This document shows, piece by piece, positions 7,418-24,724 of a stretch of DNA of 24,724 nucleotides. Each line of letters opens with the position of its first letter. Positions within the stretch are counted from its first letter, which is position 1. The stretch is from IMG/VR virus record IMGVR_UViG_3300025759_000660, positions 1-24,724 of that record; one strand, 5' to 3'. This stretch comes from a virus. The position numbers and the translations under genes were made by a program. The notes under the pieces were generated by a model that was not told the origin of the DNA, did no database searches, and worked only from the letters and a program-made list of their open reading frames with translations.

Positions 7418-7657
7418 ATCACAACTGAGCAGCCACTGTTTGGGTATAACAATCTCAGCGTCTCCCTGTTCTGGCTGACCTTCCTCATCTAAAATAAAAT
7501 GAGGACATATAGTCATTGAAATATCATCTTCACGTAAGATTATACCGCAAGATATAACCTTTGCAGGTTTAGTGCTGACTAGCTCGTCTATAGATCGCCA
7601 GCCTACGTTACCCCCGCCTGAAGCATCAATCCACGTTGCTTTGTGTATCCTCACCAT
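7406..7657 (-). CDS. conserved phage protein of unknown function, 83 aa
   Basis: The pattern TWIDASGGGNVGWRSIDEL, then SCGIILREDDISMTICPHF, then IVIPKQWL recalls a small beta-rich protein seen in many marine phages, function unknown to me. Two Cys are mid-protein and one near the C-terminus; there is no signal peptide. The ATG at 7657 overlaps the stop of the preceding gene as ATGGTGA. No strong ribosome site is present, so translation is probably coupled. A TTG at 7675 is possible but adds only six residues. It is the last gene of the minus arm. Confidence 0.75.
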   Translation of the reverse strand: MVRIHKATWIDASGGGNVGWRSIDELVSTKPAKVISCGIILREDDISMTICPHFILDEEGQPEQGDAEIVIPKQWLLSCDLIN

Positions 7658-7947
7658 TTTGTACGGTCTGCCCAATAAGCTGCTGACATTTTACCTTTCT
7701 TAATATTCTTAGCATGACGAGCTTTAAAACTAGCTCTTTTCTTTTTCATTTTATCGGACTCACCAGCCTTAGGTTTACCTGCTGTACTAGCACCTTGCTC
7801 ACCAAAGCGGATTAATTTTAAATTATGACCTTCTTGAGCCAACACAACATGAGATTTTTTAGGATGGTCAGGGGTTCTTTTAGGTTTATTAACGCCTTTG
7901 AGCCTATGTTTTTTAATTAGGTTTTCTCTACGTGTTTCGTGAGCCAT
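7651..7947 (-). CDS. small basic conserved protein (DUF6321-like), 98 aa
   Basis: The C-terminal half (GKPKAGESDKMKKKRASF followed by KARHAKNIKKGKMSAAYWAD and RTKW) recalls a motif common in marine phages that I associate with DUF6321; that name is from memory. The N-terminal half is basic too, with HNLKLIRFGEQGAST in the middle. No Cys and no membrane segment. GAGGA lies 8 bases before the ATG. It belongs to a run of tiny Lys-rich genes at the end of the late module. A minor virion or DNA-binding role is possible, but nothing in the sequence proves it. Confidence 0.82.
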   Translation of the reverse strand: MAHETRRENLIKKHRLKGVNKPKRTPDHPKKSHVVLAQEGHNLKLIRFGEQGASTAGKPKAGESDKMKKKRASFKARHAKNIKKGKMSAAYWADRTKW

Positions 7948-8020
7948 CTATATATTCCTCTTCTTTTTTATCTAGCCAAACTATAATTAGTAGTAGCAGT
8001 AAAACTACTAGAGTCCTCAT
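7928..8020 (-). CDS. 30-residue single-pass membrane microprotein
   Basis: An ATG at 8020 opens a 30-codon frame ending with TAG at 7930-7928. The product starts MRTLVVLLLLLIIVWL, a single hydrophobic helix, and ends with a charged tail DKKEEEYIDGSRNT. The ATG overlaps the stop of the upstream 85-residue gene as ATGA, the same junction type used elsewhere here, and the frame fills what would otherwise be a 69-base gap. It overlaps the next gene by 20 bases. It could be a lysis accessory or a small membrane regulator. It is short enough that chance cannot be excluded. Confidence 0.5.
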   Translation of the reverse strand: MRTLVVLLLLLIIVWLDKKEEEYIDGSRNT

Positions 8021-8274
8021 ACTTTTCGATAAGTTCTAGTTTTCTTTGCAATCTTTTTAGGCTGTTTACTATGCTGCTTACCCGCCTTTGTGTCTTTGCG
8101 TTTCTTTGCGCTGGTTTTTGCATATTCAGTAGAGCTTAAAGACTGTCGAGCCTTTTTAGGCAAGTATCTTTCACCCGTTGCTTTAGGCCCCTGAGTAGAA
8201 GGCTTACCAGATTTAGTACCCCAATCTTGTTTTGTCCAAGCCTTTAAAGACTTCTGAGACTTTTTAAGAGCCAT
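8017..8274 (-). CDS. very basic small protein (DUF5872-like), 85 aa
   Basis: I count 27 Lys/Arg against 4 acidic residues. The segments KAWTKQDWGTKSGKPST, GERYLPKKARQSLSSTEYAK and KKRKDTKAGKQHSKQPKKIA recall a short domain found in marine phage and other virus genomes that I associate with DUF5872; the name is from memory. No Cys, no membrane helix. Such a charge suggests nucleic acid contact, for example a minor virion protein packed with DNA. The ATG is reached through a TAATG junction with the previous gene. Confidence 0.8.
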   Translation of the reverse strand: MALKKSQKSLKAWTKQDWGTKSGKPSTQGPKATGERYLPKKARQSLSSTEYAKTSAKKRKDTKAGKQHSKQPKKIAKKTRTYRKV

Positions 8275-8453
8275 TACTTGTACCCTCCACCCTGAGCTTT
8301 GTATTCTTTAGCTAACATTTGAGCCTTACGTGCTGACCATTGACCAGCTTTACCTCCCTTTGAACCTGCTTTAATTTTATTAAATAGATTCTTACGCATA
8401 GTAGGCCTAGTATAGTTACCTGCTTTATTAACCGTAGATTTTTTTTGTGCCAT
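8274..8453 (-). CDS. tiny basic conserved protein, 59 aa
   Basis: The product (NKAGNYTRPTMRKNLFNKIK, then GSKGGKAGQWSARKAQMLAK and EYKAQGGGYK) has 15 Lys/Arg and one acidic residue. I recall near-identical small proteins from marine phages but know no function. The start at 8453 is fixed by GGAGGA seven bases upstream and a TAATG junction with the holin-like gene; a longer frame from 8513 would overlap that gene by 60 bases and is less likely. Both ends use TAATG junctions. Confidence 0.82.
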   Translation of the reverse strand: MAQKKSTVNKAGNYTRPTMRKNLFNKIKAGSKGGKAGQWSARKAQMLAKEYKAQGGGYK

Positions 8454-8836
8454 TACTTTCTCCTCCAAACACGAATACCATAAATGGCTGCAAACACTGC
8501 TAGTATTAACCACTGATACCAGTCAGGTGTTTTAGATAAAGCAGCAAAGCCATCTTCTACATACTGAACAGTACCCGGAATAAAACTAAGAACCATAGGA
8601 ATAGAAAGAAGAAGTAATACAAACTCATCCTTCCATCCAGAGTTACGAATCTGTTCAAGCTCCCAAGAGTTGTCCATTTCCTGTCCTCTCATAGTAGCCT
8701 CTAGCTTCGTTCTGTGGCGAGCTTCTTCAATCTCTAAGGTCTTTACCTTTTCTTGGTGTTTACGCTCGCTACGGGCTGATACAGCGTCTACAACCTTGCC
8801 TCCTAATCCACCTATCAAGTTACCTATAATGCTCAT
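8453..8836 (-). CDS. holin-like membrane protein, 127 aa
   Basis: An N-terminal short helix (IIGNLIGGLGG) and a charged coiled segment (about 20-65) are followed by two clear membrane helices, about 70-90 (DEFVLLLLSIPMVLSFIPG) and 107-124 (YQWLILAVFAAIYGIRVW), and a WRRK tail. This fits holins of the gene-transfer-agent or three-helix type (PF11351-like), which open the inner membrane so that endolysin can act. Its place two kilobases from the M15 peptidase in the same operon supports lysis. AGGAG is seven bases before the start. Confidence 0.8.
   Translation of the reverse strand: MSIIGNLIGGLGGKVVDAVSARSERKHQEKVKTLEIEEARHRTKLEATMRGQEMDNSWELEQIRNSGWKDEFVLLLLSIPMVLSFIPGTVQYVEDGFAALSKTPDWYQWLILAVFAAIYGIRVWRRK
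8461..8466 (-). promoter_or_regulatory. strong ribosome binding site for the 59-residue basic protein
   Basis: The minus strand reads GGAGGA seven bases before the ATG at 8453. It lies within the last codons of the holin-like gene, combining a full Shine-Dalgarno match with a TAATG stop-start junction. Confidence 0.75.
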
Positions 8837-8845
8837 AGCTTTCTC

Positions 8846-9355
8846 CTAGTTCAAAGGATTAGATAAGTAATCCATTCCTGACCACAGATCTTCTATTTCT
8901 GTATCTATTTTCTTTAATTTAGAATCTACATCTTTTAAATCTTTTGTCATTAGTTCAGCCTGTGTAACTGTAACACGCATAGATTCTAGTTCTTTTTCAA
9001 GCTCTATTACTTTCTCGTTGATTGTAAGCAGCTTGGCTTGTTGCTCTGCTATAGTTTTTAAATTAACCCCTAGCTCTGCAAGCTTACCTTGTAATTGATT
9101 TACGTCATTAGCAATAAGTTCCTGCTGAATCAGTTTTATTTGTTCCGCTAACTCAGCCTCAACACGACCTACCTCTTCTGTAATAGGAACAACATCAGGT
9201 ATCTGTAAGGCTTCTACCGCTTCTAGACGGCTGTAGAGGCTGCTTGCAGTCCATACACCGCCTCCTAGTGTTGTAGCTAGGCTAAGTAATATAGCGATGT
9301 ATACGCCTTTAAAAGACGTACCACCGATTGTTAGTTCTGTTTCCGCTAAACTCAT
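8846..9355 (-). CDS. membrane-anchored coiled-coil protein, 169 aa
   Basis: One membrane helix at about residues 17-38 (VYIAILLSLATTLGGGVW) is followed by some 110 residues of heptad-like, charged coiled coil (for example LAEQIKLIQQELIANDVNQL) and a C-terminal SGMDYLSNPL. The short N-terminus before the helix suggests that the coiled coil is periplasmic. That layout is like an inner-membrane spanin, and the gene is in the lysis region, but no partner lipoprotein was found, so this is only a possibility. I recall similar proteins in marine phages without a known function. The start at 9355 shares a TGATG junction with the previous gene and has GAGGA upstream. Confidence 0.8.
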   Translation of the reverse strand: MSLAETELTIGGTSFKGVYIAILLSLATTLGGGVWTASSLYSRLEAVEALQIPDVVPITEEVGRVEAELAEQIKLIQQELIANDVNQLQGKLAELGVNLKTIAEQQAKLLTINEKVIELEKELESMRVTVTQAELMTKDLKDVDSKLKKIDTEIEDLWSGMDYLSNPLN

Positions 9356-10200
9356 CAGTCGCAATCCTCGTTAAACATGAAACATCTGTAGCCTAATGCA
9401 GTAGGGCCAGTTAGATACAACTCACTTTCAGCTCCTGTCGCTAACCAATCTGCCTCACTTAAGTAAAAGTCCATGCCAAACGATCCTTGTTGCCCATTTA
9501 TGTACACCGCACTAGCGTTGTTAGTTCCAGTGTGAGACAGTTTTACCCACTGTTGATTCTGAGAAAATGTTAGTGTGCCTTCGTTTGCATTAGTATTATT
9601 ATTTTCAGCTCCTTGCTGTAAAAAAGCTACTGCGTCTTCGTTGGCTGCTACACCTAGATATGCTGAAGCATTGTTACCATGTTCTTCTATATCATCTAAA
9701 GATTGATTGTAGGTGTCTACTTGATCCTGTGTAATTGTTAATGTTGACTCGTTTGCAACAACGTATTCTTGAACTTCTGCTTTATCGTCGGGAGTTTCTG
9801 CCTCAGCAGCAATCTCTGCAACCTCTACGACCGCAATCATTTCTACTACTACGTCCGTGAACTCTTCTACGGCAGTATTCATCAGTTCAAACTCTGTGGC
9901 TGCTTGTGCCTCCAATAAGGCTTGGACATCTCCATAGGCTTGATAGTCTCCCATGTTGCCCAAAGCGGTGTTGTAAGCATTTAACTGAGCAGTGCTTATG
10001 TGAGCAGTCCCAGCAAGGCTACCGTTTGTCAAAGCTCCTCCTGTGTTTGAATAAGCATAACCAGCACCAGCAAGTTTGATACCTCTGTCTATTTGATTAA
10101 CAAGTGCAGTGCTAGAAGTAATTAAAGCATCTAACTCATTGGAGTGAGCTACGGAACTTAATAGACACAGAGATAACATCATCATTATTCTCTTCATCAT
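9355..10200 (-). CDS. exported phage protein of unknown function, 281 aa
   Basis: A signal peptide is clear: MMKRIMMMLSLCLLSSVAHS with likely cleavage after AHS (residue 20). There is no proper lipobox, since the residue before C12 is Leu. The mature protein is acidic and polar, with an Ala/Glu/Val-rich helix near 110-145, two Asn/Thr-rich stretches (STLTITQDQVDTYNQSLDD; GTLTFSQNQQWVKLSH) that look like beta units, and a C-terminal pair C273/C280. I do not recognise a function. It lies in the lysis region next to another exported protein, so it may act on the envelope or alter the cell surface during late infection. Its first 65 bases also encode the tail of the neighbouring gene in another frame. 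AGGAG is nine bases before the start. Confidence 0.85.
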   Translation of the reverse strand: MMKRIMMMLSLCLLSSVAHSNELDALITSSTALVNQIDRGIKLAGAGYAYSNTGGALTNGSLAGTAHISTAQLNAYNTALGNMGDYQAYGDVQALLEAQAATEFELMNTAVEEFTDVVVEMIAVVEVAEIAAEAETPDDKAEVQEYVVANESTLTITQDQVDTYNQSLDDIEEHGNNASAYLGVAANEDAVAFLQQGAENNNTNANEGTLTFSQNQQWVKLSHTGTNNASAVYINGQQGSFGMDFYLSEADWLATGAESELYLTGPTALGYRCFMFNEDCD

Positions 10201-10865: not shown

Positions 10866-11234
10866 TCAATAGCTCCACACCCAAGGACGAGGACGGCCTT
10901 CATCCCACTCAAGGTCATCTAAATGTATAAATCTATTATTGCCTTTTTGATTAACGCCTATGCCAGTCATACCCACCCTTAGCGCAGCATCTAAAAGCTT
11001 ATGAGCTTTGTCTCCACTAACAGCAATATCTATAGCGTGACCCGAAGCGTGTGCGCCGGGAGTTTTTTTCTTACGCTCAATGATGTGATCCTTACAGCGA
11101 TAAGCAGAAGTAACAACAAAAGGAAATCCTAACTCATGGCGTAGTGCTTCTACTTTAACCATGAAAGATTCATCCATCCCATCAGCGCCACAGTGTTGAC
11201 ACTTAAGTTCTTCTGTGCTAAAATATTTATACAT
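10866..11234 (-). CDS. M15-family zinc peptidase endolysin, 122 aa
   Basis: A small peptidoglycan peptidase (Peptidase_M15_3-like). The zinc ligands expected for the family are visible: H62 and D69 in AHASGHAIDI and H104 in RFIHLDD. The spacing of the first two equals that of the T5 endolysin H66/D73. VTSAYRCKDH precedes them, as is usual. The N-terminal CQHCG pair and C47 are common in this family. No signal peptide is present, so a holin is needed for access to the wall. It probably cleaves a peptide bond in the stem peptide. The start is a TAATG junction with the 1187-residue gene, with AAAGGA six bases before. Confidence 0.93.
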   Translation of the reverse strand: MYKYFSTEELKCQHCGADGMDESFMVKVEALRHELGFPFVVTSAYRCKDHIIERKKKTPGAHASGHAIDIAVSGDKAHKLLDAALRVGMTGIGVNQKGNNRFIHLDDLEWDEGRPRPWVWSY

Positions 11235-14200
11235 TATTTATCCTTTAGTAAACTATATGATCTACTTTTAGCTGCTTTAATAGCAGTATCCATGTCTTTA
11301 TACGTAGGAAGTGTTTCTCCTGTAATAAAATCAACAGCTCCATCTTTAGTTAACTGAGATTCGACAAGCTTTTTAAATAATCGTTCGGGTATTTTATTTC
11401 CTTTTTTATCTATAGTAGGATAGTTAACCCAATCCCCGTTATCTAGCTGTATTGTTTCAGTACGTTCTGAATATTTACCTTTTTCATCTTCATAAACTTT
11501 ACGGCCCTTAGTAGTTACTTTAGAGCCTTCGTGTAAACCCAATCTTACCAAAGGATCTACTTCACCGCCTTTACCAAAACCCATACGTCTTAAAGGATCT
11601 TCTTCATCCATGAAAGCAGTACCGGCTTGTACGTTGTAAGGAAGCCCTGTCATTTTATCTATACGCTCATCGGGTTCAGGAGAAGCTTGAGGTATGTCTA
11701 CTTCACCTCCTTTTTTAAACTCAAAGCGTCTAGGAGGTCTTTCAGGAACTGTGTAGTCTCTCATTTGAGAATCTAAATCTCTAATAAAAGTATCGTAGTC
11801 TTTCTTAGCTTCCGGGCTAATAGTGTTTATAGCTCCATAGAACGGAACTTTTTCACCTAAAAATCTAACGGGGCTATCACGTTTAATTATTTTATAAATG
11901 TCTTGGCCTACAGGCCCCAACATAGAAGAAACGTAAGCTGTTTGACTTTGATATATTTCAGCAGACTTATTAGCCCTTGCCATCATATCTGCTATTAAAC
12001 CGTTACCGCCCCAACGCTTTACAGCTTCAACATAAATTTCTTCTTCTGATTTAAACTTCTCGCTTTCACCGTGGCTTCTAGCCCAGTTAGTCCATCGAGC
12101 CGTTTCTGTCATAATAAGACCAGCAGCCAATGTTTTAGGTACGTTACCTACAGGATCACGCATCATTTTAGTAGCTGCGTTTTTAAGAATAGTATTTGAA
12201 AAAGCAGCGGGGTATCCCATAAACTGAAAAAGAATAGAAGTTTTAGGATTAGATAATAAAGTAGGCTTTAGTCCTGACTCAGGAGTCGGCGTTAGAATAA
12301 CCTCATTAGTATAACGCGAAGCCCCTCTTTGAACTGCTGTGTAAAACTCATCGTCTTCTTTAGCGCCTCTTGCGATCCACTGAAGACCCTTGTTTATATC
12401 TACACCTAATTCTTTAAGCTCATCGCGCATAGCTTTAGTGCGACCAGAGTCCTCTAAGTTTCCACGCGCAGAAATCTTTTTAAGGTTTTCTACAATAAGT
12501 TCTTTACCCGTAATAAACGAAGTTAGCTGAACAAACTTTGTCCACTGATCCAACATAGTAAATCTAAAAAAGCCGTTGTTCACGCTTCTACTAAAATTAG
12601 AATTAAGTGTATCACCTGAAAGTCTTTCGGCAACATCACCAGCAGCCGTATCTACAGCAATAGAAAATTTATTTAACTCTCTCCAGATTTCAGGCTCTTT
12701 TAAGTCGTGATTCTTTTTTAAGAAATCTATTAAGTTTGTTTGAATTGTTTGTCTACCAGCTTTAGAAGCCTGAGAAAAACCTTTAATAGTGTTAACTACA
12801 CCAGCCTTTTGAACATTAATAAATATTTCTGTGACACTAGATAGTGTAGCTAAAGGTAAGTATGCGAGGCGATTAGCCGTAGAGTAAAAGTCTACTACGC
12901 CACTAAATGTTCCTTCCCAGCGTTTAACATCTTCACCTGTAGCTGTCCTATAAAGATTTGTAATTCTGTCACGATCTTTTTTACTTAAAGTTTTACCAGC
13001 GTCTGCCATTTCAGCAGCTATAGGGTTTAACCAACGCTTTTTAAACTCATTAAGATTTTTAACACCAAACACTTGTTTTTTAGCTAACTGCTTTGCTGTT
13101 TGAAAACTATAATTAATTAAAACTTTGTTGATATCTCCTTCTAGAAATTCTTCAAAGTCATTATCTTTAAGTTTAGTAAAAGCTCTTTTAGCAAAAAAAC
13201 TATTACCAGCAACACTTCCTTCGCCTATTTGATTTTCTATATCGAGCATTTGAGTTATAATTGCCTCTGCTTCGGTTAAGTCCTCGGCTTCTTCAGCTTC
13301 AATAAGCTTTCTTGCAAACTCTTCAGGATTATTTTCTATAGCTTTACGGTTCCAGAAACGTGGCACATAGCCCTCAATAGGCTCATCAATATAACCAGCA
13401 TCACTAAGTTCTTTACCAAGCTTATCTAATACATCCCTACGTAAAAAACCTGCTATAATATTTATGTTTTCATTATCCGCAGTTTCGCCGCGTAACGCCC
13501 TCATTAACTCGTTGTTTACAGGGATTGTTAAATCACCTTTTACATTAGTCTGAATAGGCTCCATAGCCAGTTTTACTTTTGTATAATACTCACCAGATAT
13601 TTCTTTCATGACTTCATAAAAGTCTTGTTGATCGTATTCCCGCTCACCCCAAATATTACGACCTAAGTCGTATCTAAATTTCTTTTGAAGTTCTTTAGCA
13701 GAGCCAGAATAAGAAGTATAAGAGTCTAAAAGAGACGCAGGTTTAAAGGCTATAGTCGCACCAAAAGAATTTGCTATTCTGCCCAGCTCAAACAAAAGTT
13801 TATTTTTAATTTTTTTAGGTTCTGTGTTAGCCGTAGTCTCTTCTACAAGATCTTGAACTTCTTCTTTAGTAACTTTACCGCCTCCTAAGTCTTCTACTAA
13901 ATCATCAAATAAATTTGTTTGTGTAGGAAGCTGTTCTGGTTCTTCAGTATCAAACAAACCTAACTGACGCGGAGCTTTTTCTTCAACCTCGATTAGCTTC
14001 TCTTCTGAAGGAGCTTCTAAGTCATCTTCTTTAGATTTTAATTTAGGCGTACTTACTTCTTCTTTTAAATCCTCAATTCTACGAGCATTCTTAGTAAGAC
14101 CTCCAGACAAAGAAGAAATTGCAGCTCCAAGGCCACCACCTAACACAGCTCCTGCGCCGGTCATTAGGGCTACTTCTGTTCCTGAAACAGCATCACGTAT

Positions 14201-14797
14201 ACCAGCATTTATTTCTACATTTTGTCGAGCATAGTTATCTAGACCTGTCCAAGCACTACCAGCTATAGCACCTCTTGTAGCTGCTGCTGAAGTAGACTCT
14301 GAAGTCGCAAGTTTTTTAAGGGTTGCTTTAACACCAGACTTAACTGTTTCTTTTGCAGCTACGCTAGAGCCTCCTGTAAAAACAAGGCCTAACAGGTTTA
14401 AAGGATCTGAAACTATATCTATGCCATAATCCATAGTAGCTTCTAAACCTTCTTTCCATCCTTTTATTTCAGTCTTGTTATCCCAAGTATCTCTAAGTCT
14501 TTGGTAAGATTGTTTTACATCTTCTGGCATTTCTTCGTCTAAAAGACCTCTAGTTAAAAGATCCGTTAGTCGCATATCTTCATCACGTATAGACTCTGAA
14601 ATATCTTCGTAGCCTTGTGCGCCTCCTACTGTAGGAAACTGTTTGGCTACCCAACTAAAATATTTTTCAGCGTCTTCTTGAACTTGAGGATTACTTTCAA
14701 ACTGTGTAACACTCATTTTTAAATTTGCAGGAGGTGTATATAAACTAACCTCGTCAGCGTCTTGGACCTGAGTATAATCTTTTTTATATATAGCCAT
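11234..14797 (-). CDS. giant internal virion / DNA ejection protein, gp16-like in position, 1187 aa
   Basis: A very large, mostly helical protein without signal peptide or recognisable enzyme domain. Visible parts: an N-terminal helical region with DIVSDPLNLLGL (about 128-138), a Gly/Ala-rich hydrophobic stretch at about 207-233, an acidic linker (about 240-330), a long central helical region, and a tail with two KGGEVD-type motifs (GGEVD at 1030-1034 and 1077-1081) flanking PDERIDKMTGLPYN. The last 90 residues (RKVYEDEKGKYSERTETIQL, then DNGDWVNYPTIDKKG) look like a separate beta-rich module. No transglycosylase motif like that at the N-terminus of T7 gp16 is seen. Size and place after the 178- and 765-residue genes resemble T7 gp16, which builds the ejection channel. 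The role is inferred from context. Confidence 0.8.
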   Translation of the reverse strand: MAIYKKDYTQVQDADEVSLYTPPANLKMSVTQFESNPQVQEDAEKYFSWVAKQFPTVGGAQGYEDISESIRDEDMRLTDLLTRGLLDEEMPEDVKQSYQRLRDTWDNKTEIKGWKEGLEATMDYGIDIVSDPLNLLGLVFTGGSSVAAKETVKSGVKATLKKLATSESTSAAATRGAIAGSAWTGLDNYARQNVEINAGIRDAVSGTEVALMTGAGAVLGGGLGAAISSLSGGLTKNARRIEDLKEEVSTPKLKSKEDDLEAPSEEKLIEVEEKAPRQLGLFDTEEPEQLPTQTNLFDDLVEDLGGGKVTKEEVQDLVEETTANTEPKKIKNKLLFELGRIANSFGATIAFKPASLLDSYTSYSGSAKELQKKFRYDLGRNIWGEREYDQQDFYEVMKEISGEYYTKVKLAMEPIQTNVKGDLTIPVNNELMRALRGETADNENINIIAGFLRRDVLDKLGKELSDAGYIDEPIEGYVPRFWNRKAIENNPEEFARKLIEAEEAEDLTEAEAIITQMLDIENQIGEGSVAGNSFFAKRAFTKLKDNDFEEFLEGDINKVLINYSFQTAKQLAKKQVFGVKNLNEFKKRWLNPIAAEMADAGKTLSKKDRDRITNLYRTATGEDVKRWEGTFSGVVDFYSTANRLAYLPLATLSSVTEIFINVQKAGVVNTIKGFSQASKAGRQTIQTNLIDFLKKNHDLKEPEIWRELNKFSIAVDTAAGDVAERLSGDTLNSNFSRSVNNGFFRFTMLDQWTKFVQLTSFITGKELIVENLKKISARGNLEDSGRTKAMRDELKELGVDINKGLQWIARGAKEDDEFYTAVQRGASRYTNEVILTPTPESGLKPTLLSNPKTSILFQFMGYPAAFSNTILKNAATKMMRDPVGNVPKTLAAGLIMTETARWTNWARSHGESEKFKSEEEIYVEAVKRWGGNGLIADMMARANKSAEIYQSQTAYVSSMLGPVGQDIYKIIKRDSPVRFLGEKVPFYGAINTISPEAKKDYDTFIRDLDSQMRDYTVPERPPRRFEFKKGGEVDIPQASPEPDERIDKMTGLPYNVQAGTAFMDEEDPLRRMGFGKGGEVDPLVRLGLHEGSKVTTKGRKVYEDEKGKYSERTETIQLDNGDWVNYPTIDKKGNKIPERLFKKLVESQLTKDGAVDFITGETLPTYKDMDTAIKAAKSRSYSLLKDK

Positions 14798-14805
14798 GCT
14801 TTACC

Positions 14806-17103
14806 TTATAAATAGAGTGCTGCTAGTACTTGATTAGTAAAATCTTCGTCATATACTTTAGCTAAAGATTGTCTTACATCCATATCTTCCCAACCCCTAA
14901 GCTCTTTAATAGCATCAGCTACGTTTTTAGCCGAAGTATCTATAGAAGATAAAGTTTCTTCAAATTCACCTAACTTAGCCCTTCTTCGTTGGCCCGTTTT
15001 AGTTTTAGAACCGCCCGGAGGCTCATTAGCTATTTGATCTTCTAAGTTAAACTTTTGCTCTATAGACTCTTCAAGCCTTAATCTAGTTTGTCTATTCATG
15101 TAAATAGGTTTAGTATCCTGACCTAACTCAGCTAGTTCAGCATTAACCCGAGATAACTCTTCTTTTTCAGAACTTCTTGTTCCTGCTGGAGCGTCTGTAG
15201 TCCTAGCTTCTAACTCTTCTTTTCTCTTTAGAAGTTTAATAGAAGGATCTTCAGCCGCTTCTGCTTCAGCTCTTTGAGCAGCCCTTTGAGCAGGTAAATC
15301 AGAAGTATCTAAAAGAATACCACTTTGTAAGTTAGTTTCTGTTTCAGCCAATCTAGCCGCTTCATCTTTCTCTATAGTAACTCCAAATAAAGAAGCAATA
15401 GGTGCGCCTCCTTCTCTAAAAGGCATAGCAAACACAGAGCTATTTCTAGAAACCATTGCGCCTGAAGAGTCTTGGATAACTGTCTGACCAGCAGCTAAAC
15501 TTTCTTGGATAGCCTCTTGAACATATTTAAGAGTTTCTGGGCTGCGTTTAAGCCTATCCATGTATTCTGCCATTTCAGGAACAGACACTAAAGATCTAAC
15601 CATGTTTGTTTTTTGTCGTTGATCCATAGAAACAGCGTATGTACCACCTGCTCTTTGCTCTACTTTATCTAAACCAAGCAAAACTAAGGGGCCTAAGATA
15701 TTTCTATTTTGACCCACAACTTCTGAAACTAAGTTTTGACCTAAACCTTTACCGGCTCCTTCGTCTGAAGTTGTAAAGTCTATAGTCATTAACTGAATCT
15801 CTGCTGCAATGTCATTAGCTAAAGTAAGATCTGATACTTCAAAAGCTGGTACATCAGCACCGCCAAAAACTTTGCTGTTTATGTTTTGACCAAGCAAGTA
15901 AGTTGTTCTATTGAAATTGTCAAAGTATTCTTGATTAATATCATCACCGCCTAAAGTAAAAAAGTCAGCAGCAGTTTTTCTTTTTTCTTTTCTATCCCCA
16001 CTTTGATCTATAGCTGCATCAAAAGCAGCACGACCTTTATCAGCATTAGCATCTGAAACTTCAGGTACAGTAGCCGGGAAATAATCAGGAGAAATTTTAC
16101 CTGTAGACATTGTTTCAACAACCGCATTGTTTGCCCCTACAGCAATAGCTACTTTTACTACTTGTCCTGTATGTTGATTTACACGTTCTACTATTTCAAC
16201 CTTAGCTCTTTCACCCGCTACAAAAGCTTTGCTTGCTTCATTTCCTGCAACTGGATTTATTGTTGTTTTTAATTCACCTGTTTTGATATTTTTAATTGTT
16301 ATTTTTTCAACTGGAATGGAAATATTATTAGGATCTTGTTTATATATTATTTCACTGCTTACTCGTTGATTTTCATCTTTAAGTTCAAATTGCTCTTTAA
16401 CAGCATCCCCAAGTTTTACAGCACCTGCTGCAGACAGCCCTTGTTTATAAGCTGTTGAGGCTGCCGTATAAGCCTCACTATTTTTACTAAACTTACTGTT
16501 TAAAACAGAATCTACAAAGGCTTCTTTGTTCGGTTTATCTTTAGAAAAAGAACCTAAAATAGCATCCCGCACATTACGATACGCAGGATTTCTATTTTCA
16601 ACAAAAGTATTATAATCTGAATCAGGAGTTAATTTTAAAGCGGCCTGTCTTGCTCTATTAAATTTACCATAAAGTCCATCGCCATCGACAGTACCTACAA
16701 TTTCTTCTGTTCTTCTTGTAATTTCTTTTTCATAAGCATCAGGATCTGCTAACATACCTTCTTCAACATTTAAGTCATACTCGGCTTTAATTCCCGGCCT
16801 TACTTTACTTATTAACCAGCTTCTAGCACCACCTACAAACCTATCAGCAGCCTCTCCATCTTTAAGAGTTTGAGAAGCATCATCATAGCTTCTTTTATAA
16901 GCAAGCTTGTTAGCTAAAACATCTTCGTTTTGCATCCATGACTCAGCTTTTTTTTCTAAGGCTTTATTAGCAAAACCAAGACCTAACTTAGCTACACCAC
17001 CAATAAGTGCATATTTGTCAGCCCTGCGAGCTTCTTTTCTAGCGCGTCTACTTTGTTCGCCTTTACGCTCTAAAAGACTAAATCCTAAATCGTCTATCGC
17101 CAT
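14806..17103 (-). CDS. internal virion protein, gp15-like in size and position, 765 aa
   Basis: A large helical, charged protein, close to the 747 residues of T7 gp15. The N-terminus is basic (LLERKGEQSRRARKEARRAD), followed by a short hydrophobic helix (ALIGGVAKLGLGFANKAL, about 32-49). The middle is rich in aromatic and Asn residues, and the last 150 residues are a charged coiled-coil-like region (PSIKLLKRKEELEARTTD; REELS-type repeats) ending in VLAALYL. I see no enzyme motif, Cys cluster or signal. It lies between a 178- and an 1187-residue gene, the order of T7 gp14-gp15-gp16, so a part of the DNA ejection apparatus is likely. It starts at a TAATG junction. Confidence 0.78.
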   Translation of the reverse strand: MAIDDLGFSLLERKGEQSRRARKEARRADKYALIGGVAKLGLGFANKALEKKAESWMQNEDVLANKLAYKRSYDDASQTLKDGEAADRFVGGARSWLISKVRPGIKAEYDLNVEEGMLADPDAYEKEITRRTEEIVGTVDGDGLYGKFNRARQAALKLTPDSDYNTFVENRNPAYRNVRDAILGSFSKDKPNKEAFVDSVLNSKFSKNSEAYTAASTAYKQGLSAAGAVKLGDAVKEQFELKDENQRVSSEIIYKQDPNNISIPVEKITIKNIKTGELKTTINPVAGNEASKAFVAGERAKVEIVERVNQHTGQVVKVAIAVGANNAVVETMSTGKISPDYFPATVPEVSDANADKGRAAFDAAIDQSGDRKEKRKTAADFFTLGGDDINQEYFDNFNRTTYLLGQNINSKVFGGADVPAFEVSDLTLANDIAAEIQLMTIDFTTSDEGAGKGLGQNLVSEVVGQNRNILGPLVLLGLDKVEQRAGGTYAVSMDQRQKTNMVRSLVSVPEMAEYMDRLKRSPETLKYVQEAIQESLAAGQTVIQDSSGAMVSRNSSVFAMPFREGGAPIASLFGVTIEKDEAARLAETETNLQSGILLDTSDLPAQRAAQRAEAEAAEDPSIKLLKRKEELEARTTDAPAGTRSSEKEELSRVNAELAELGQDTKPIYMNRQTRLRLEESIEQKFNLEDQIANEPPGGSKTKTGQRRRAKLGEFEETLSSIDTSAKNVADAIKELRGWEDMDVRQSLAKVYDEDFTNQVLAALYL

Positions 17104-17639
17104 TATACTTTCTCCAATAAGCTCTTAGGTTGAGGCAGCTCTTCGATCTTTTCCTCGATGCTTGCAGGTAAAATACCTTCAGGAACTTTCATAGATCCTT
17201 TAGCTTGTTTAATTTTACTAAACTTTTCTTGGGCTATGTTAACCCCTAATAATTCAGCTTCTGCTTCGTCTTCTTTTTCTTCATCTGTATAAAGTTTATA
17301 ATCAATACCAGCACGTTCTGCTAAAGCCATAAGAATATAAGTAGCCGGTTCTATGAGGAGTAACATTAAATCAGGGTTCCACTTGCCTTGATTAAAGCCT
17401 TGGAACAAAAAGACCTGTGCAATATCCATAACGGGTGTACCGTCTTCTATGGCAGTCATCATAGTTACGTATGTTTCTTCTTCAGTTAATATTTCAAATA
17501 GATACTCTGAAGCCTTAACGACATTAGTAAACTCAGATGGTTTTTCCCAAGGATAAGGATTTTCAGGATCATTTGTTAATGACTCCCCCGGAATAGGTCT
17601 ATCCATTTTAGAACTATACTTTATAAAATCTTCATTCAT
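17103..17639 (-). CDS. conserved virion-associated protein, 178 aa
   Basis: The motif MDRPIPGESLTNDPENPYPW and the hydrophobic helix NPDLMLLLIEPATYILMALA recall a protein found in many marine phages, including tailed phages of other morphologies. Its function is unknown to me. It is acidic overall, with EEKEDEAEAELLG in the C-terminal third. It overlaps the preceding gene as ATGA and the next as TAATG. Its place before the gp15- and gp16-like genes matches T7 gp14 (196 residues), an internal virion protein, but I cannot show sequence similarity to gp14. Confidence 0.8.
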   Translation of the reverse strand: MNEDFIKYSSKMDRPIPGESLTNDPENPYPWEKPSEFTNVVKASEYLFEILTEEETYVTMMTAIEDGTPVMDIAQVFLFQGFNQGKWNPDLMLLLIEPATYILMALAERAGIDYKLYTDEEKEDEAEAELLGVNIAQEKFSKIKQAKGSMKVPEGILPASIEEKIEELPQPKSLLEKV

Positions 17640-18829
17640 GCTGCGGCATACCTTTGTTGTTGTTGCATGTAGTACATGTAAGGACTCATTTGATTAAAGT
17701 CATAACCCTGTGTAAAAGCACTATATCCATAAGGCCCTTGAGACATGTCTGTTGCAAAAGCTTGTTGAGGTTGATAACCAATAGTAGGTTCATATAATGA
17801 TTGAAGTTGTGCGCCACCACCGTAGAACACATCAGGATCTTCTGCGGTCATAAGTTGAGCTTGTTGTGTTAAATCCATTGTTTGTTGCACAACACCTAAT
17901 GGGTCGCTTTCAAATTTTCTTTTAATAGTAGATCCAGCCCTTTCTAGTAAAGAAGCCGTTGGCGCTGGCGCTGGTGGTGTACCTTGCACACCTGCCTGTG
18001 GGTCAGACATTCCAGTAGTAGTAGAACCGGAGACACGCTGTTTTGTGTCTGGGTCGTATTGATAACCAGTTTCAGCCTCAAGTGTAGTAGCAGGAGAAAA
18101 CTCATAAGCTTCTTGTGTAGGTGCGCCTTGCAAACTAAGTGTTTCCTGAGTAGGGATTATACTACTTTGTGGCTGCATAACAGCAGCGTTAGGTAAAGAT
18201 TCCATACCTGCAGCATTAAAGCCAGCCTGACTTATATCAGTACGTAAAACTGTACCAGCTTCTATAACATTACCGGAAATGTTTGGATTTAACTCACGTA
18301 AAGTACTTTCTCTTATACCTGTTTTGTTAGCAGCGTCTGCAAAAGAAGTATCAGCGCCGAAAGAAGTAGAACCCTTAAAAGGATCTAAGATTCTAGAACC
18401 TGTATCTAAAGTTCTAGACCAAGCACTGTCGTTACCAAAGAAGTTAGTGGCTGCACCTTCGATGCTAATACCCGGAATTTTATTTAATGCAGTCTTAGCA
18501 AAGTTACTAACTCCGTCAGTTATTGTACCAAAAGCATTACCCGCTGTAGTAGCAAACTTATGTGCTGTATTTAAAACAGTTCCTAAGCCTCTAGCTAAAC
18601 TTCCTCCAAGGCCTTTTCCCGCTACACCCATTAAACCTTTGGCTGCAGCGCCTAGACCTTTCATCAGAAAGCCTCCTACATGTGGCATAATAAACATCAT
18701 ACCTAACTGACCGACAATACCAAGTTTACCTACAAACTTACCAATGCCCTTAACAGCTTTTTTAATTTTACTGCCGATCTTTTTAAATACTTTTTTTATG
18801 CCTTTCCAAAGGCTACTGAAAAATCCCAT
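17636..18829 (-). CDS. virion protein with amphipathic basic N-terminus and LysM-like motif, 397 aa
   Basis: The first 35 residues (FFSSLWKGIKKVFKKIGSKI, then KKAVKGIGKFVG) form a cationic amphipathic helix like a membrane-active peptide. A Gly/Ala/Met-rich hydrophobic stretch follows to about residue 85. Residues 161-197 (SFADAANKTGIRESTLRELN, then EAGTVLRT) fit a LysM peptidoglycan-binding motif, though degenerate. The last 150 residues are Gln/Tyr/Pro-rich and probably flexible. The combination suggests a protein carried in the virion that crosses or perforates the envelope at infection. It sits among ejection protein genes. GGAGG lies six bases before the ATG, within the last codons of the upstream gene, with a TAATG junction. 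The function is inference. Confidence 0.8.
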   Translation of the reverse strand: MGFFSSLWKGIKKVFKKIGSKIKKAVKGIGKFVGKLGIVGQLGMMFIMPHVGGFLMKGLGAAAKGLMGVAGKGLGGSLARGLGTVLNTAHKFATTAGNAFGTITDGVSNFAKTALNKIPGISIEGAATNFFGNDSAWSRTLDTGSRILDPFKGSTSFGADTSFADAANKTGIRESTLRELNPNISGNVIEAGTVLRTDISQAGFNAAGMESLPNAAVMQPQSSIIPTQETLSLQGAPTQEAYEFSPATTLEAETGYQYDPDTKQRVSGSTTTGMSDPQAGVQGTPPAPAPTASLLERAGSTIKRKFESDPLGVVQQTMDLTQQAQLMTAEDPDVFYGGGAQLQSLYEPTIGYQPQQAFATDMSQGPYGYSAFTQGYDFNQMSPYMYYMQQQQRYAAA

Positions 18830-21800
18830 TAATCGCCTCCTAATGCGGTTATTATACCAGTAACTAAAGTTTGTATATTCTTTGAAGAAAAAGACTCGCC
18901 TTCATTTGCAAGGGCTGTAGCAAACAAAGTAGTTCTTCTTTGCTGATCATTTTCGTAACCTTGCCTTAAATAACTTACTTCATCCCTTAACTGCTGCCAC
19001 ATAAAGTTTTGTTCAGTTGTAGTTAACTGAAAGCTTTGTCGAGCAGCTTCTTGATTAGCAGCATTTTCTGCGGCTGTAGTAGCTAAGTTAGCTTGTCTAC
19101 GCCACTGAATATTAGATTGTTCAATAGCTTGAGCATTTGCAGCATTCCATTGTTCACGTCTAAATTCGTTTTCTGCGTTATACTGATCAACCTGTACAGA
19201 TAATTGTTCAGTAAATTTAGCAGCTTCTAAATCATTACCAGCGTCTATTGCAGCCATTCTATTTTTTTCAGTTAAATTAAACTGAGACATATTGTTAGCT
19301 TGAGATACATTAAACTGCCTTAAGTTAGATTCTAAGTTAGCGACAAACTGCTGCATTTGATTATCAGAAGTAGCATTAAACTGTTTAGCAGCATTTTGAG
19401 CAGCCTGATTAGAAAGTAATCTTTGTTGCTTTAACTGAGCTTCAAGAACACTTGATTGTTGTTCGTTACCTAAATCAGTTAAATCTCTTTGCAAGAAGTT
19501 TCTTGCATTTTCTATAGAAGCTTTAGTAGCTAAATCAGCTTCTGCAATATCTCTTTGAGACAATAAAGTAGCTTGTTGTAAAGCAGACTGTTGTCTATTA
19601 TCTAAATTCTTTAGAGTTAAAGTCTGCATAAACTGACTGTTAGCAATAGCCGCTTGCTGTTCAAAATCTAAATCTTTCATATCAAGATTAGCATTTAACT
19701 GAGCATTTAACATAGCAGCATTTTGAGCGTTGCTTAAGTCAGCCAAACCTAACTGCTGCGCTAACTGAGCATTTACTTGAGCAGCTTGCATTCTTTTTTC
19801 GAAACCCTGTAAATTAGCAACATTAGTAGCCGTCATGTTTTCAGAGTCAGCTTGGTTCTTAGAAGTTAAATTAGCAAGAGTAATTTTTTCTTGTGCGCTT
19901 AACTTGGCAAGCTCTGAGTTTTGTCTAAGCTGTTCATTCTGTGACATTACATTAACGTAAGTCGTAAGCTCTTGGAGCCTAAAGCGATTGGCTTCAGTAA
20001 AGTTTGCTGAGTCAGTAGCAGCTCTTTCAGCTAAGTTAGCCATTTCCATTTGCTGCTCGTTAGACATATTAGCAAGTTCCATTTGCTGTGCCATTGAAGC
20101 ATTAGTCTTTTTAAAGTCTACAAGGTTTTGTAAATTAACAAGACGCTCTTGGTTTTCTGCTGTCATACTATCTCTTGCAGCAGCATTCTTTTCAGTAAGA
20201 TTCATCATTTCCATGCGAAGACTAGAATCAAGATTGGCTTTTTCCATGTCTTGAGTTAGCTCTGCTTGGCGCATTATTCTATTTACATTAGCTTGATACG
20301 AAGCTAGTTTAGACTGTTGAGCAGCATTTAAGTTTTCTCTTCCTGCTAAGTTAAGAGCTTCTAAGTTTGCTAAGTCCATACGACTGCCAGCATCTAAATT
20401 AGCTAAAGCAGTTTGCTGTCTCTGTGAAGATTCTTGAGAGGCTTTTTGTTGAGCATTTTGAATATTAACCATCCTAACTTGCTGCTCTTGTTGGGCAGTT
20501 GTCAGTACAGCTTCTTGTTCAAACTGACCTTGTTGCATTTTAATCTGTTGCGCCATCTGTGCAGTCTGTGATGCTGCTGTCTGACGGTTAGAAAGATTTT
20601 GCATACGAATCTGCATAACATTTTGAGCAGAGGCTAAGTTAGCTTGTTGTTCATTACTTAAGTTTTGCTGTGCGCGTTGCTGCAAGGCTTGTGCATTACT
20701 TTGTGCCATAGGTAAGGCACTTTGAATAATAGCATTGAAAAGAGCATCACGGCCTACTGTAGAAACACTAAGACCTCTTCTAGCCATTTGTTGCTCAACG
20801 GCGGCTACTGCAGGTCTAGCCCATGTAGGAGTCTTACCTTCTTCCATACCAGCCAAAAGGTTTTCCATCTGAACAGATACTAAAGCTTCTTGAGGTAAAG
20901 CAGCTACAGCAGCCTTAACTTCAGGAGCTGTATTAGGATCATCTAATTGAGCCTCTACAGTTGCAGGATCTTCTGACACCGCAGCAGTAATCTCAGGAGG
21001 CATATTGCCTACAACAGACATCATGTCAGCCGCAGCAGCTTGTCGAGCTTCTCCGGTAACTGCTTGCATCTGAGAAGCTGCTAGAGTTGGTACACCACCT
21101 ATCTGAGCTGCAGTACCTTTAGGAGCATCTCCTGTAATAGCTCTTCGACCTTGTAAGTCTACGCTAGGAGTTTCTCCTAGTTTTTCTTCGATGCCTTTTG
21201 CAGCAACACCTACTTGAGCTTCACGTTGATTAGCAATAATAAACTCAGGAATCTTTTCTAAATCGACACCTTCAGACGATACAATATCTAAAACATCTTT
21301 AGCTTCTCTAGCCGATATAGTATTTTCAGTTCTTGTACGAACTTCAGGATCTTGAATTGTATTTAAATCTATACCATAAGACTCCGCTGCTTGTGCTGGA
21401 CTAGCATAGGTTTTAGCAGCCCTATCAGTTGTAGGTACTTGAACTTTAGCTTTAGTAACCTTATCTTCATCTAAATCCTGTTCTGCAGCAGACACTGTAA
21501 AAGGTTCTTCATCGCCTATTGTAGCAGCGGTAGCTTCTTGTACTTTTTCTTCTTTATCTCTAGTAGCTGCATCAACAGTAACCTTGTCTTCGCCCACAGT
21601 AGCTGCATCTACTTTAGCAGCTTCTCCTGAGGCTCCGAAGTCTCCTTCTAACTCAAACTCGTCTATTAAGTCTTCAGGGCTTCTTGTAAATGTATTACCT
21701 CGACCATCTTGAAATCTAATTTTACCATCGCTACCGACTTTATATTTAAGACCTGTTTTTTCTGCAAAGGCCCTAGCGACATTCTGAGCATCATAACCAA

Positions 21801-22443
21801 AAGGAGCTTCTTCAGCTTGTTTAGCCTCTCCTGCGCCTGTACTCGAAACATCTGTAGCAGTAACAGTTCTATCTTCTGTGCTTATATCTTTACCTTCTGT
21901 TTCAAGAGCTTCAATATCTTCGTCTTTAGTTGTAATAGACTTTTCAGCTTTTTTAAAATCTTCTTCAGAAACTTTAAATAAGTTTTCAACTTCACGCGGA
22001 GTTAAATACTGAGGTTTTGCTCCGCGAGGCTGATAAATAAAAGAGTTTTTATCTTCTGCCCAGCGTACAGTAGCGCCTTTACCTGCTTTTCCTGCAGCGG
22101 CTTCGGCCATACCTCTATAATCCATAGATATTTCTACACCAGCTTTAGCAACCTCTGGCTTTTGAACTTCGATGCTTGGAAGATCCGTCGGAGTTTCTAC
22201 AAGCTTACCAGCAGCCGGGTCCATAACAGAAACAGGATCAGGAGATGTCTTAACAGGGACATCAGGATTATTTGGGTCGGAATCATACTGATCTGCGACA
22301 CCATCACCATCAGTATCTTTTGGATTTTGATCAAAACCACCACCAGAATTTTTAAGGTAACGAGTCCCACCTTTTGTAAAAGCAGCTCTTTTCCTTTTCA
22401 AAGCCTTTAAAGCCTTATTAGTGTTCCTATTTTTTTTACCCAT
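18829..22443 (-). CDS. giant repeat protein: Ca-binding loop plus 54 hendecad repeats, 1204 aa
   Basis: The N-terminus is Lys-rich (residues 1-30). Residues 43-61 (KDTDGDGVADQYDSDPNNPD region) form a thrombospondin-type-3-like calcium loop with D43, D45, D47, D51 and D54. Two related units follow at 111-163 and 221-269, joined by acidic linkers. Residues 540-580 hold WARPAVAAVEQQMARRGLSV and GRDALFNAIIQSALPMAQ, a stretch I recall as conserved in marine phages. Residues 581-1174 are an unbroken 11-residue repeat array, free of Pro and Cys and rich in Gln, Asn, Ala and Leu. The last 30 residues hold a short hydrophobic helix (LVTGIITALGG). It is likely a structural or ejected virion protein; no enzyme motif is seen. 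It lies directly before the LysM-like gene. Confidence 0.88.
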   Translation of the reverse strand: MGKKNRNTNKALKALKRKRAAFTKGGTRYLKNSGGGFDQNPKDTDGDGVADQYDSDPNNPDVPVKTSPDPVSVMDPAAGKLVETPTDLPSIEVQKPEVAKAGVEISMDYRGMAEAAAGKAGKGATVRWAEDKNSFIYQPRGAKPQYLTPREVENLFKVSEEDFKKAEKSITTKDEDIEALETEGKDISTEDRTVTATDVSSTGAGEAKQAEEAPFGYDAQNVARAFAEKTGLKYKVGSDGKIRFQDGRGNTFTRSPEDLIDEFELEGDFGASGEAAKVDAATVGEDKVTVDAATRDKEEKVQEATAATIGDEEPFTVSAAEQDLDEDKVTKAKVQVPTTDRAAKTYASPAQAAESYGIDLNTIQDPEVRTRTENTISAREAKDVLDIVSSEGVDLEKIPEFIIANQREAQVGVAAKGIEEKLGETPSVDLQGRRAITGDAPKGTAAQIGGVPTLAASQMQAVTGEARQAAAADMMSVVGNMPPEITAAVSEDPATVEAQLDDPNTAPEVKAAVAALPQEALVSVQMENLLAGMEEGKTPTWARPAVAAVEQQMARRGLSVSTVGRDALFNAIIQSALPMAQSNAQALQQRAQQNLSNEQQANLASAQNVMQIRMQNLSNRQTAASQTAQMAQQIKMQQGQFEQEAVLTTAQQEQQVRMVNIQNAQQKASQESSQRQQTALANLDAGSRMDLANLEALNLAGRENLNAAQQSKLASYQANVNRIMRQAELTQDMEKANLDSSLRMEMMNLTEKNAAARDSMTAENQERLVNLQNLVDFKKTNASMAQQMELANMSNEQQMEMANLAERAATDSANFTEANRFRLQELTTYVNVMSQNEQLRQNSELAKLSAQEKITLANLTSKNQADSENMTATNVANLQGFEKRMQAAQVNAQLAQQLGLADLSNAQNAAMLNAQLNANLDMKDLDFEQQAAIANSQFMQTLTLKNLDNRQQSALQQATLLSQRDIAEADLATKASIENARNFLQRDLTDLGNEQQSSVLEAQLKQQRLLSNQAAQNAAKQFNATSDNQMQQFVANLESNLRQFNVSQANNMSQFNLTEKNRMAAIDAGNDLEAAKFTEQLSVQVDQYNAENEFRREQWNAANAQAIEQSNIQWRRQANLATTAAENAANQEAARQSFQLTTTEQNFMWQQLRDEVSYLRQGYENDQQRRTTLFATALANEGESFSSKNIQTLVTGIITALGGD
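18922..20703 (-). repeat. 54 tandem 33-base units encoding 11-residue (hendecad) repeats
   Basis: Translation of this stretch can be cut into 54 consecutive 11-residue units with no insertion or deletion. Typical units are LANLTSKNQAD, LADLSNAQNAA, LKNLDNRQQSA and LTDLGNEQQSS. By hand count, position 3 is Asn in 29 of 54 units, and position 1 is Leu, Met, Ile or Val in 23 of units 10-40. Position 4 tends to alternate between Leu and Ala in neighbouring units, giving a 22-residue super-period in the later half. The DNA repeat is too diverged to be obvious at base level. Confidence 0.88.
21637..22113 (-). repeat. diverged internal duplication in the 1204-residue protein
   Basis: Residues 111-163 (bases 22113-21955) and 221-269 (bases 21783-21637) align by eye: both run from an A-x-A-x-K-x-G helix start through a basic/aromatic strand and an RG turn to a S/TP-x-E helix with an aromatic end and an ED/GD-F. 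The intervening sequence is acidic and low in complexity. Confidence 0.55.
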
Positions 22444-23082: not shown

Positions 23083-24724
23083 TTAAGATTCTAGTTGTGC
23101 GACTCTTGCGCGTAGGCTTTGGATTTCTTTGAGCATCATTGGAACTAGTTTGCTGTAGTCAACGCCCATCATTTCTTCTGAGTCAGCATCGCCAGACACA
23201 GCTTCAGGTGCAACGCTCTGCAACTCTTGTGCAACCATGCCGTACTTCTGATGTGACCCGTCAGCTTTCCAGTCAAACGAACGCACTTGGATAGCGTCAA
23301 TGTCGTCAGAAGCAGAAGGTGCGTCTACGATGTTTTCCTTGAGGCGTTGGTCTGATGAAGTGTTGTAGGCTGTAGCTGACGATGTACTTGTTATGCTTCC
23401 TACTACAGACGTTCCATTCCTAAACTGTGCATGAGTATGTGAACCGCTTCCCCAACTTTTCCAGTTTGGATTAGAGCTAGTGCCTGAAAAAGCGTTGCCG
23501 TATGATCTGCTAGTAGCATCAGAAATGCTTGTAAGACCTACCAGCAAGTTGCCATCATTTGTCAGCCTCATTTTCAGCCCGGCACCAGTGTTGAAGTCGT
23601 AAGTCATCTCATTGCTAGTATTGGCAGAGATTTGAAATCCGTTAGTTACTCCAGAAATTGCGCTGATCAGTGTGCCGGTAGCGACTCCACTAGCCGTAAT
23701 ATTTTGCACACCGCCTGATAGGTAGAGGTCTTTGAAGCGGGCGCCTGAACTCCCTAAATCAATAGCGGCATCTCTTGATGCGGGGGTAGCCGCAGAATTA
23801 TCAAAAGGTAGAACGGAATTTCCAGTATTGTAAAAATATATCCCAGTCGAACCTGTTCCGATTGAAAGCCTATCATCTGTGTGGATTCTTCCTGCGACAG
23901 CTCCATTTTTACCAAACTGTATTTGTGTAGCGTGAGCTAGGTCATCACGATTTAGGTTTATGTAGCCACTACCAACCTCTGCGCTATTTGCATCAGACGC
24001 ACTACCATCTACCCCTGCCGCAGAGCTGATTCCAATCAGCAAAGGACTCCCTGCTAAAACACTGCCTGACAGGTGGAGGTCTTTGAAGCGGACAACATCT
24101 CTTCCTAAGTCGATGGCTGCATCTCGCGCCGCATTTGTAGACCCATTGTGCGGTACTAAGGCATCTCTTAAAGAGTCAAAGAATAAAGATGTATCGCCTG
24201 AGCCAACATGGATTTTTGACGATAAAGTACCAATCGACCCGACTGTGGTGCTGGAATCTTTTTTAAATACTGCAATGTCGCCGTCCGAATTTTTGCGATT
24301 TAATACTACAACATCATCTCCATCCGCTGTCGCTAGAATTCTTCCTGTGCCGAACAAATTAATACCAACGGTTTCAAGGGCAGTTGTAGCCTTCCCCACC
24401 AGCAAGTTGCCGCTGGAATCTATGCGCATGCGTTCTGAAACACCGTCGCCATTAACAAAAGCCAAACCGTTAGAGCCGTTAAGTGTAGATAAGAAAAATC
24501 TTGCGGTTCCGTTTTCGTTAAAGCGTTGAGAAACTGCGCCGCTAGTTGCGTTCAAGCCTAACACTACTCCGGTGCTACTTATGTGTAGTGGGTAGTCTGG
24601 GCTAGTACCAATCCCGACGTTGCCATCTTCCTGCACCCTAAATAACTCCGTACCTCCTGAAGTTCCTGTGCGATCTTTACCGATTATAAAGTCTTCACCA
24701 GCGCTGTTACCGTCGCTATCAATG
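23083..24724 (-). CDS. tail fibre or spike with C-terminal S74 chaperone domain (5' end outside window)
   Basis: The frame stays open to base 24723, so the start lies beyond the window; the GTG at 24636 is internal. The body is made of short beta units (VQEDGNVGIGT; MRIDSSGNLLVGK; MRLTNDGNLLVG), as in trimeric fibres, with a 117-residue duplicated unit containing RDAAIDLG and RFKDL-LSG. The last 90 residues (bases 23355-23086) start SDQRLKENI and contain FDWKADGSHQKYGMVAQELQ and VDYSKLVPMMLKEIQSLRAR. These mark the Peptidase_S74 intramolecular chaperone, which trimerises the fibre and cuts itself off near the conserved Ser-Asp. The fibre would bind the host surface. No catalytic depolymerase domain is visible in the part present. 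Confidence 0.93.
   Translation of the reverse strand, partial: IDSDGNSAGEDFIIGKDRTGTSGGTELFRVQEDGNVGIGTSPDYPLHISSTGVVLGLNATSGAVSQRFNENGTARFFLSTLNGSNGLAFVNGDGVSERMRIDSSGNLLVGKATTALETVGINLFGTGRILATADGDDVVVLNRKNSDGDIAVFKKDSSTTVGSIGTLSSKIHVGSGDTSLFFDSLRDALVPHNGSTNAARDAAIDLGRDVVRFKDLHLSGSVLAGSPLLIGISSAAGVDGSASDANSAEVGSGYINLNRDDLAHATQIQFGKNGAVAGRIHTDDRLSIGTGSTGIYFYNTGNSVLPFDNSAATPASRDAAIDLGSSGARFKDLYLSGGVQNITASGVATGTLISAISGVTNGFQISANTSNEMTYDFNTGAGLKMRLTNDGNLLVGLTSISDATSRSYGNAFSGTSSNPNWKSWGSGSHTHAQFRNGTSVVGSITSTSSATAYNTSSDQRLKENIVDAPSASDDIDAIQVRSFDWKADGSHQKYGMVAQELQSVAPEAVSGDADSEEMMGVDYSKLVPMMLKEIQSLRARVAQLES
23713..24133 (-). repeat. two copies of a tail fibre segment, offset 351 bases
   Basis: The plus strand reads GAGGTCTTTGAAGCGG at 23725 and again at 24076. 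Flanking bases stay similar over about 70 bases (23713-23785 against 24064-24133). The exact 351-base offset is 117 codons, so whole protein units were duplicated in frame. Confidence 0.8.

Follow-up and report, generated by a model that had tools for sequence, protein, structure and literature searches.

A protein of an HMO-2011-type podovirus carries a hendecad (11-residue) array that keeps its register without slips throughout its family, changes in length mostly by blocks of ten units and is encoded by a gene lying directly before a conserved module. To act as a fixed-step rod or DNA-delivery tube is probably the purpose of the array. The window, i.e. the whole stretch of DNA analysed, comprises the 24,724 bases of an IMG/VR virus record, in which the gene and the parts of its protein are arranged as follows.

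18829–22443, minus strand: gene of the 1204-residue hendecad-array protein, homologue of HMO-2011 gp25 (open reading frame and translation, tblastn relatives, dN/dS)
21004–22443, minus strand: N-terminal region, residues 1–480, variable and of low complexity (translation; hardly conserved in alignment A1)
20701–20835, minus strand: conserved head before the array, residues 537–581 (TPxWA..RGL..S..ALPMAQ), the N-terminal anchor (alignment A1)
19054–20703, minus strand: hendecad array, 50 well-supported units, residues 581–1130 (autocorrelation and family-profile unit scores)
18931–19122, minus strand: conserved tail at and after the array end, residues 1108–1171 (EQSNxxWRR...LRD), the C-terminal anchor (alignment A1)
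18922–19053, minus strand: residues 1131–1174, weakly fitting the repeat and part of the conserved tail (unit scores of -0.4 to -8.7)

The head anchor has invariant P539, W541, A542, P578 and A580 in alignment A1, and the tail anchor invariant N1111 and R1169 together with a near-invariant W1114. Close to the N-terminus, residues 43–66 (window 22246–22317) form a thrombospondin type-3-like calcium-binding motif, DTDGDGVADQYDSDPNNPD; among the proteins collected by then, similar motifs were present only in L020, L040 and the near-identical L004.

The earlier note, made from the sequence of the window, had described 54 consecutive units covering residues 581–1174 (window 18922–20703), and this stretch can indeed be divided into 54 x 11 residues without insertion or deletion. 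As a check that note had named autocorrelation at lags 11 and 22 against shuffled sequence; both peaks are present (identity autocorrelation, z = 6.7 and 8.6 against 1000 shuffles), together with lags 33, 44 and 55 (z = 5.3, 9.0 and 9.4), while values at lags 10, 12, 21 and 23 are below zero and strong peaks fall at multiples of 11 only. When scored on the family profile, units 1–50 are positive except for two that are slightly negative, and units 51–54 score poorly, so that the array proper ends near residue 1130. About 50 units are thus well supported, and the last four belong with the conserved tail. Recounting reproduced Asn at position 3 in 29 of the 54 units and the absence of both Pro and Cys. 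The lack of Pro is informative, with 6 prolines in 76,967 residues of the non-redundant family arrays as opposed to 5.2% upstream of the array; the lack of Cys is uninformative, because the family is also devoid of Cys upstream of the array. Gly makes up about 1.3% of array residues. The repeat is therefore confirmed, and it is stronger than first stated.

Relatives of the array protein were found by tblastn in 26 phage records, among them Puniceispirillum phage HMO-2011 (gp25), Roseobacter CRP phages, the pelagiphages HTVC033P/103P/104P/115P and phages of Vibrio, Aeromonas, Pseudoalteromonas, Sinorhizobium and Rhizobium. They are annotated as hypothetical, bar one that is unannotated and one labelled 'huntingtin' (the ctYwJ313 copy, L010:4017-6608, MW202701.1), a label presumably derived from Gln-rich composition. 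HMO-2011 gp25 and its counterparts in CRP, HTVC, CHOED, MQM1 and phiM6 phages share head and tail motifs as well as register, i.e. they are true homologues, and differ from the window protein in unit number. The window protein itself has the features that define the gp25 family, a PxWA...ALP(I/M)AQ head and an NxxWRR tail around an in-register array. HMO-2011-type phages, short-tailed in the isolated relatives, are among the most abundant marine viruses (PMC9038755). The phage records and eight collection scans provided 577 proteins in total, and a single scan of bacterial genome contigs confirmed no relative. Searches of Pfam, PHROG, NCBIfam and PDB sequences with the array protein yielded no family: in PHROG, matches were restricted to the S74 domains of two homologues and one marginal match of unknown function, and PDB sequences gave no match to protein or family profile up to an E-value of 10. 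Structural comparison of the AF2 model by Foldseek likewise gave no match in the PDB, and in BFVD retrieved unnamed viral proteins, some of them evidently relatives.

The register is preserved in all relatives. Homologues with insertions that break it, which the earlier note had named as evidence that would speak against its reading, were looked for with a dynamic programming scan that allows phase slips; none occurs between long runs in the 577 proteins (198,180 array residues). In the first 417 proteins, which also contain 0 slips, the same scan detected 150 of 150 artificial insertions of 1–10 residues. Independent agreement comes from the span between the ALPIA-type head motif and the NxxWRR-type tail motif: divided by 11 it leaves a remainder of 6 in 484 of 485 proteins, the exception, L450, having a single-residue insertion at the array end beside the tail motif. 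The array codons are under purifying selection (dN/dS of 0.10–0.23 against four relatives), which together with the preserved register supports the proposal that selection acts on the period itself.

The length of the array, in contrast, varies, and it does so mostly in blocks of ten units; this quantum is a new element, absent from the first reading. Counted as hendecads between the head and tail anchors, the window's lineage has 28, 38, 48 (the window), 58, 68, 78, 88 and 98 units, and a second lineage 20, 30, 40 and 50. The first count in the window's lineage reached 28–78; the values 88 and 98 came with a later collection of relatives from that lineage, made after the pattern had been seen, in which 43 of 52 new non-redundant proteins fell on the 28–98 ladder. 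Off-ladder numbers also exist (10, 13–16, 19, 21, 24, 25, 27, 31, 32, 37, 41 and 51), several being one unit away from a ladder value. Counting step events by parsimony (tree of 196 columns) gave noisy results at deep nodes, and disjoint closest pairs with unequal unit number were used instead, grouped by flank identity. With flanks at least 80% identical, 11 of 12 pairs differ by exactly 10, 20 or 30 units, and at looser flank identities the difference is a multiple of ten in 16 of 23 (70%) and 27 of 42 pairs (60%). The binomial probability is about 1e-10 or less if residue classes modulo ten are taken as equally likely, a figure that is overstated, as the proteins share ancestry. The lone very close pair to break the rule, possibly owing to an assembly artefact, joins L468 (32 units) to a relative of 78 units whose flanks are 83% identical. 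One step corresponds to 110 residues, or about 16.5 nm of helix. In whole-unit alignments, most length differences fall within a single contiguous block in the first half of the array, and about the last 20 units are conserved.

How the step arose is a separate matter from what the protein does. It may be a mutational by-product, left by an ancestral 330-bp duplication and later recombination between blocks, the step itself being devoid of function; this concerns the quantum only and is compatible with any role of the protein. We consider such an origin possible but doubtful. The confinement of most length differences to a single contiguous block agrees with it, as does the clear self-similarity of long arrays at 10 units. 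The DNA copies, however, are now only ~40–52% identical, and no exact run exceeds 23 nt at any lag tested. In addition, the window's lineage shows self-similarity also at 5 units, and its DNA identity at 5- and 10-unit spacing is about equal (e.g. 0.42 and 0.41 in L548), so that recombination guided by DNA similarity should also produce 5-unit steps, yet differences of 5, 15 or 25 units are absent from the 42 close disjoint pairs. Finally, the inner periods differ between the lineages, 5 units in one and even units in the other, and the step of 10 is nevertheless common to both. We infer from this that the ten-unit modules are under constraint.

The gene is the first of a putative ejection-protein module, in support of the earlier assignment to a phage virion module. 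Immediately downstream on the same strand are the following genes.

17636–18829, minus strand: 397-residue neighbour with a basic/hydrophobic N-terminus, candidate membrane component (weak tape measure similarity, sub-threshold LysM)
17103–17639, minus strand: 178-residue conserved module partner (no more than 3 kb downstream of the array gene, on its strand, in 258 of the 297 loci with sufficient flank)
14806–17103, minus strand: 765-residue protein, gp15-like by size and position only (gene order; no family match)
11234–14797, minus strand: 1187-residue gp16-like internal virion protein (PHROG matches)

The 397-residue neighbour has matches in 52 loci. The 1187-residue protein matches PHROG 342 'internal virion protein with endolysin domain' (4e-11), PHROG 7348 'endolysin' (8e-172) and PHROG 6958 'virion structural protein' (1e-20), and a gp16-like protein is located downstream of the array gene in 38 of 60 loci with enough flank. 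The arrangement resembles the gp14, gp15 and gp16 modules of T7/P22-type phages in that proteins of ~160–190, 370–810 and 970–1390 residues directly follow the array gene; in both the window and Slicky01, the last of them matches families of internal virion or virion structural proteins. Compared to those modules, the array gene is an extra, upstream gene. It is thereby encoded in an internal virion protein module, one criterion for an ejection protein. Elsewhere, the window contains a ribonucleotide reductase with a match to the B12-dependent class II insertion domain (5116–7002), three small Lys-rich proteins in a row (98, 85 and 79 residues; 7651–8513) and, downstream of an M15-type endolysin (10866–11234), a probable holin-like protein of 127 residues and a membrane-anchored coiled-coil protein of 172 residues (8453–9364).

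Structure prediction supports the earlier view of a helical protein. The AF2 model of residues 482–1204 of the window protein (18 related sequences, single chain) is nearly all helix at a mean pLDDT of 49.6, and that of a 20-unit relative (35 sequences, single chain; mean pLDDT 60.6) has one 108-residue helix at the array end, with block-mean pLDDT mostly 62–83. In the window model (18832–21000), helix breaks recur about every 55 residues midway along the array, a spacing that agrees, at low confidence, with the 5-unit half-repeat. We agree that a single continuous helix would be longer than the capsid, the more so as relatives reach 98 units, or ~162 nm. A beta-solenoid with an Asn ladder, prompted by the N-rich position 3 and a strong 2.2-residue harmonic, is disfavored by the AF2 models and by the helix-forming, proline-free composition. 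Also rejected were regular Gly-marked hairpins every 55 or 110 residues, as conserved Gly sites are few and irregular. Some near-invariant Gly sites stand out in the Gly-poor arrays of 20- and 30-unit relatives, e.g. in 39 of 40 at position 1 of the 17th unit from the tail, and are possible hinges.

With 11 residues mapped onto three helical turns (98.2 degrees per residue), big hydrophobics and Ala occupy positions 1, 4 and 2, 10 (partly 6), Gln and Asn positions 3, 8 and 9 (partly 5 and 6), and the charges gather at positions 7 and 11, on the side facing away from positions 5 and 9. In 98% of permutations the one-faced hydrophobic moment is larger than that observed. Two lobes are favored over one by hydrophobicity and conservation combined (P=0.022); hydrophobicity alone gives P=0.13–0.14 for two faces, which is not significant, and conservation alone reveals no single face (P=0.87). 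Position 5 is rather variable. Hydrophobic residues thus seem to form two seams and no single core stripe. Tetrabrachion-type stalks are right-handed hendecad coiled coils with one hydrophobic core stripe. The window family has the 11-residue helical period in common with them and differs by its two apolar seams, by Asn/Gln at conserved positions and by its far greater length; the equation of strict hendecads with an ordinary right-handed coiled coil in the earlier note was hence too simple.

A further parallel is offered by the phiX174 DNA pilot protein H, a decameric helical tube 17 nm long that is built from hendecads and heptads (PDB 4JPP; PMC7354561). The lumen of this tube is lined mainly by Gln, Asn and Arg, with 18 of 23 inward residues being Asn, Gln or Arg (PMC7354561). 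We took the three H hendecads from Table 1 of PMC7354561 and scored them on the family profile, with the phase expected beforehand from the helical wheel, in which H positions 8 and 1 coincide with family positions 5 and 9. The hendecads fit in that one phase (+5.7 against -12.8 for the next phase; shuffle P=0.002), which brings the recurrent H glutamines to family positions 5 and 9; the comparison covers only 33 amide-rich residues. Both are thus long amide-rich helices with hendecads and Gln on the same face. They differ in that a stretch of 121 residues in H contains three hendecads and eleven heptads, whereas the window family, of dsDNA podoviruses, has ~10–98 hendecads in strict register; sequence homology between the two is not recognisable.

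Our favored, if tentative, reading is that the array is a very long, proline-free alpha-helical rod within an ejection-module protein, and that such helices assemble into a Gln/Asn-lined conduit or rod resembling phiX174 H. It is from the module position and the phase-specific H fit that we infer packaging, ejection, barrel and lumen. The protein would be packaged in the head and ejected before the DNA. Its helices would then associate side by side via the two apolar seams (positions 1-4-8 and 10-2-6 or 9-2-6), creating a barrel with an inner face of uncharged Gln, Asn and Ser (positions 5 and 9) and with the charges of positions 7 and 11 directed outward, as in the H tube. The ten-unit step would represent one structural module of the rod, such as two 55-residue half-repeats that have to be added together. 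With slightly less confidence, the protein could act as a ruler, i.e. an in-register rod or tube that is lengthened or shortened mainly by 110-residue modules, each a structural unit of a DNA-delivery conduit. Several observations count against a conduit: AF2 confidence is low and was obtained on single chains, arrays of 58–98 units (96–162 nm) are far longer than the envelope needs, the two faces lack significance by hydrophobicity alone, and the variable position 5 would make up half of the proposed lumen. In the accessible literature we found neither virion proteomics of relatives or a homologue shown in the virion, nor an account of how HMO-2011-type short tails deliver DNA.

Alternatively, the array may be an internal core or scaffold rod, that is, a packaged helical bundle or ruler with no DNA-carrying lumen that serves to set a distance or to keep the other ejection proteins in place within the head. 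We regard this as unlikely, although it shares the module context and the helical, proline-free array, accommodates the longest arrays of 98 units, which exceed any envelope, and would be suited, as a folded bundle, by the low-confidence helix breaks near the 55-residue period. Glycines are rare in the array and their conserved sites do not follow regular 55- or 110-residue steps, and such a rod leaves both the amide-rich composition and the phase-specific H fit unexplained.

An external fibre or whisker, i.e. a rod formed by a homotrimeric coiled coil on the surface or tail of the particle and bearing exchangeable chaperone domains at the C-terminus, appears more unlikely still. The Peptidase_S74 domain is best known from tail fibres. 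It is absent from the window array protein and was detected in homologues, 2 of 18 by Pfam and 9 of 167 non-redundant relatives by motif, the latter ending in an S74-like domain, which speaks for a fibre and against a conduit. The fusions to hendecad protein C-termini include L015:2097-4511 (CRP-738) and L018:2712-4571 (CRP-3), and the CRP-3 homologue is matched, in the S74 domain and in part of its array, by PHROG 6121 'virion structural protein'. Another 11 of the 167, including L003, L180 and further 20-unit relatives, have a C-terminal domain of the CWVAREVYG...RW...APKW type, the most confident part of the L180 AF2 model (block pLDDT 84–92) and one with no PDB match. Long rods would suit fibres as well. 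A trimer, however, depends on a single hydrophobic stripe, for which the one-face moment is unusually low; moreover, most relatives, the window included, are devoid of such a C-terminal domain, and the window encodes an S74 fibre separately (23083–24636). S74 is also no proof of a fibre, since PHROG 4287, annotated as DNA ejection protein, contains an S74 part. The same PHROG was rejected as direct support for an ejection role, as it matches only the S74 tail of the CRP-738 homologue.

A membrane-coating amphipathic helix, suggested by the 11- and 22-residue periods of the apolipoprotein and alpha-synuclein families, is highly improbable, as the array has no single amphipathic face.

In conclusion, a rod or tube built in fixed steps as part of the ejection module is the reading we favor for the array. 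As natural length variants number in the hundreds and follow fixed steps, the question of what determines ejection-conduit length would become directly testable, and the family provides a natural series for studying very long hendecad assemblies.
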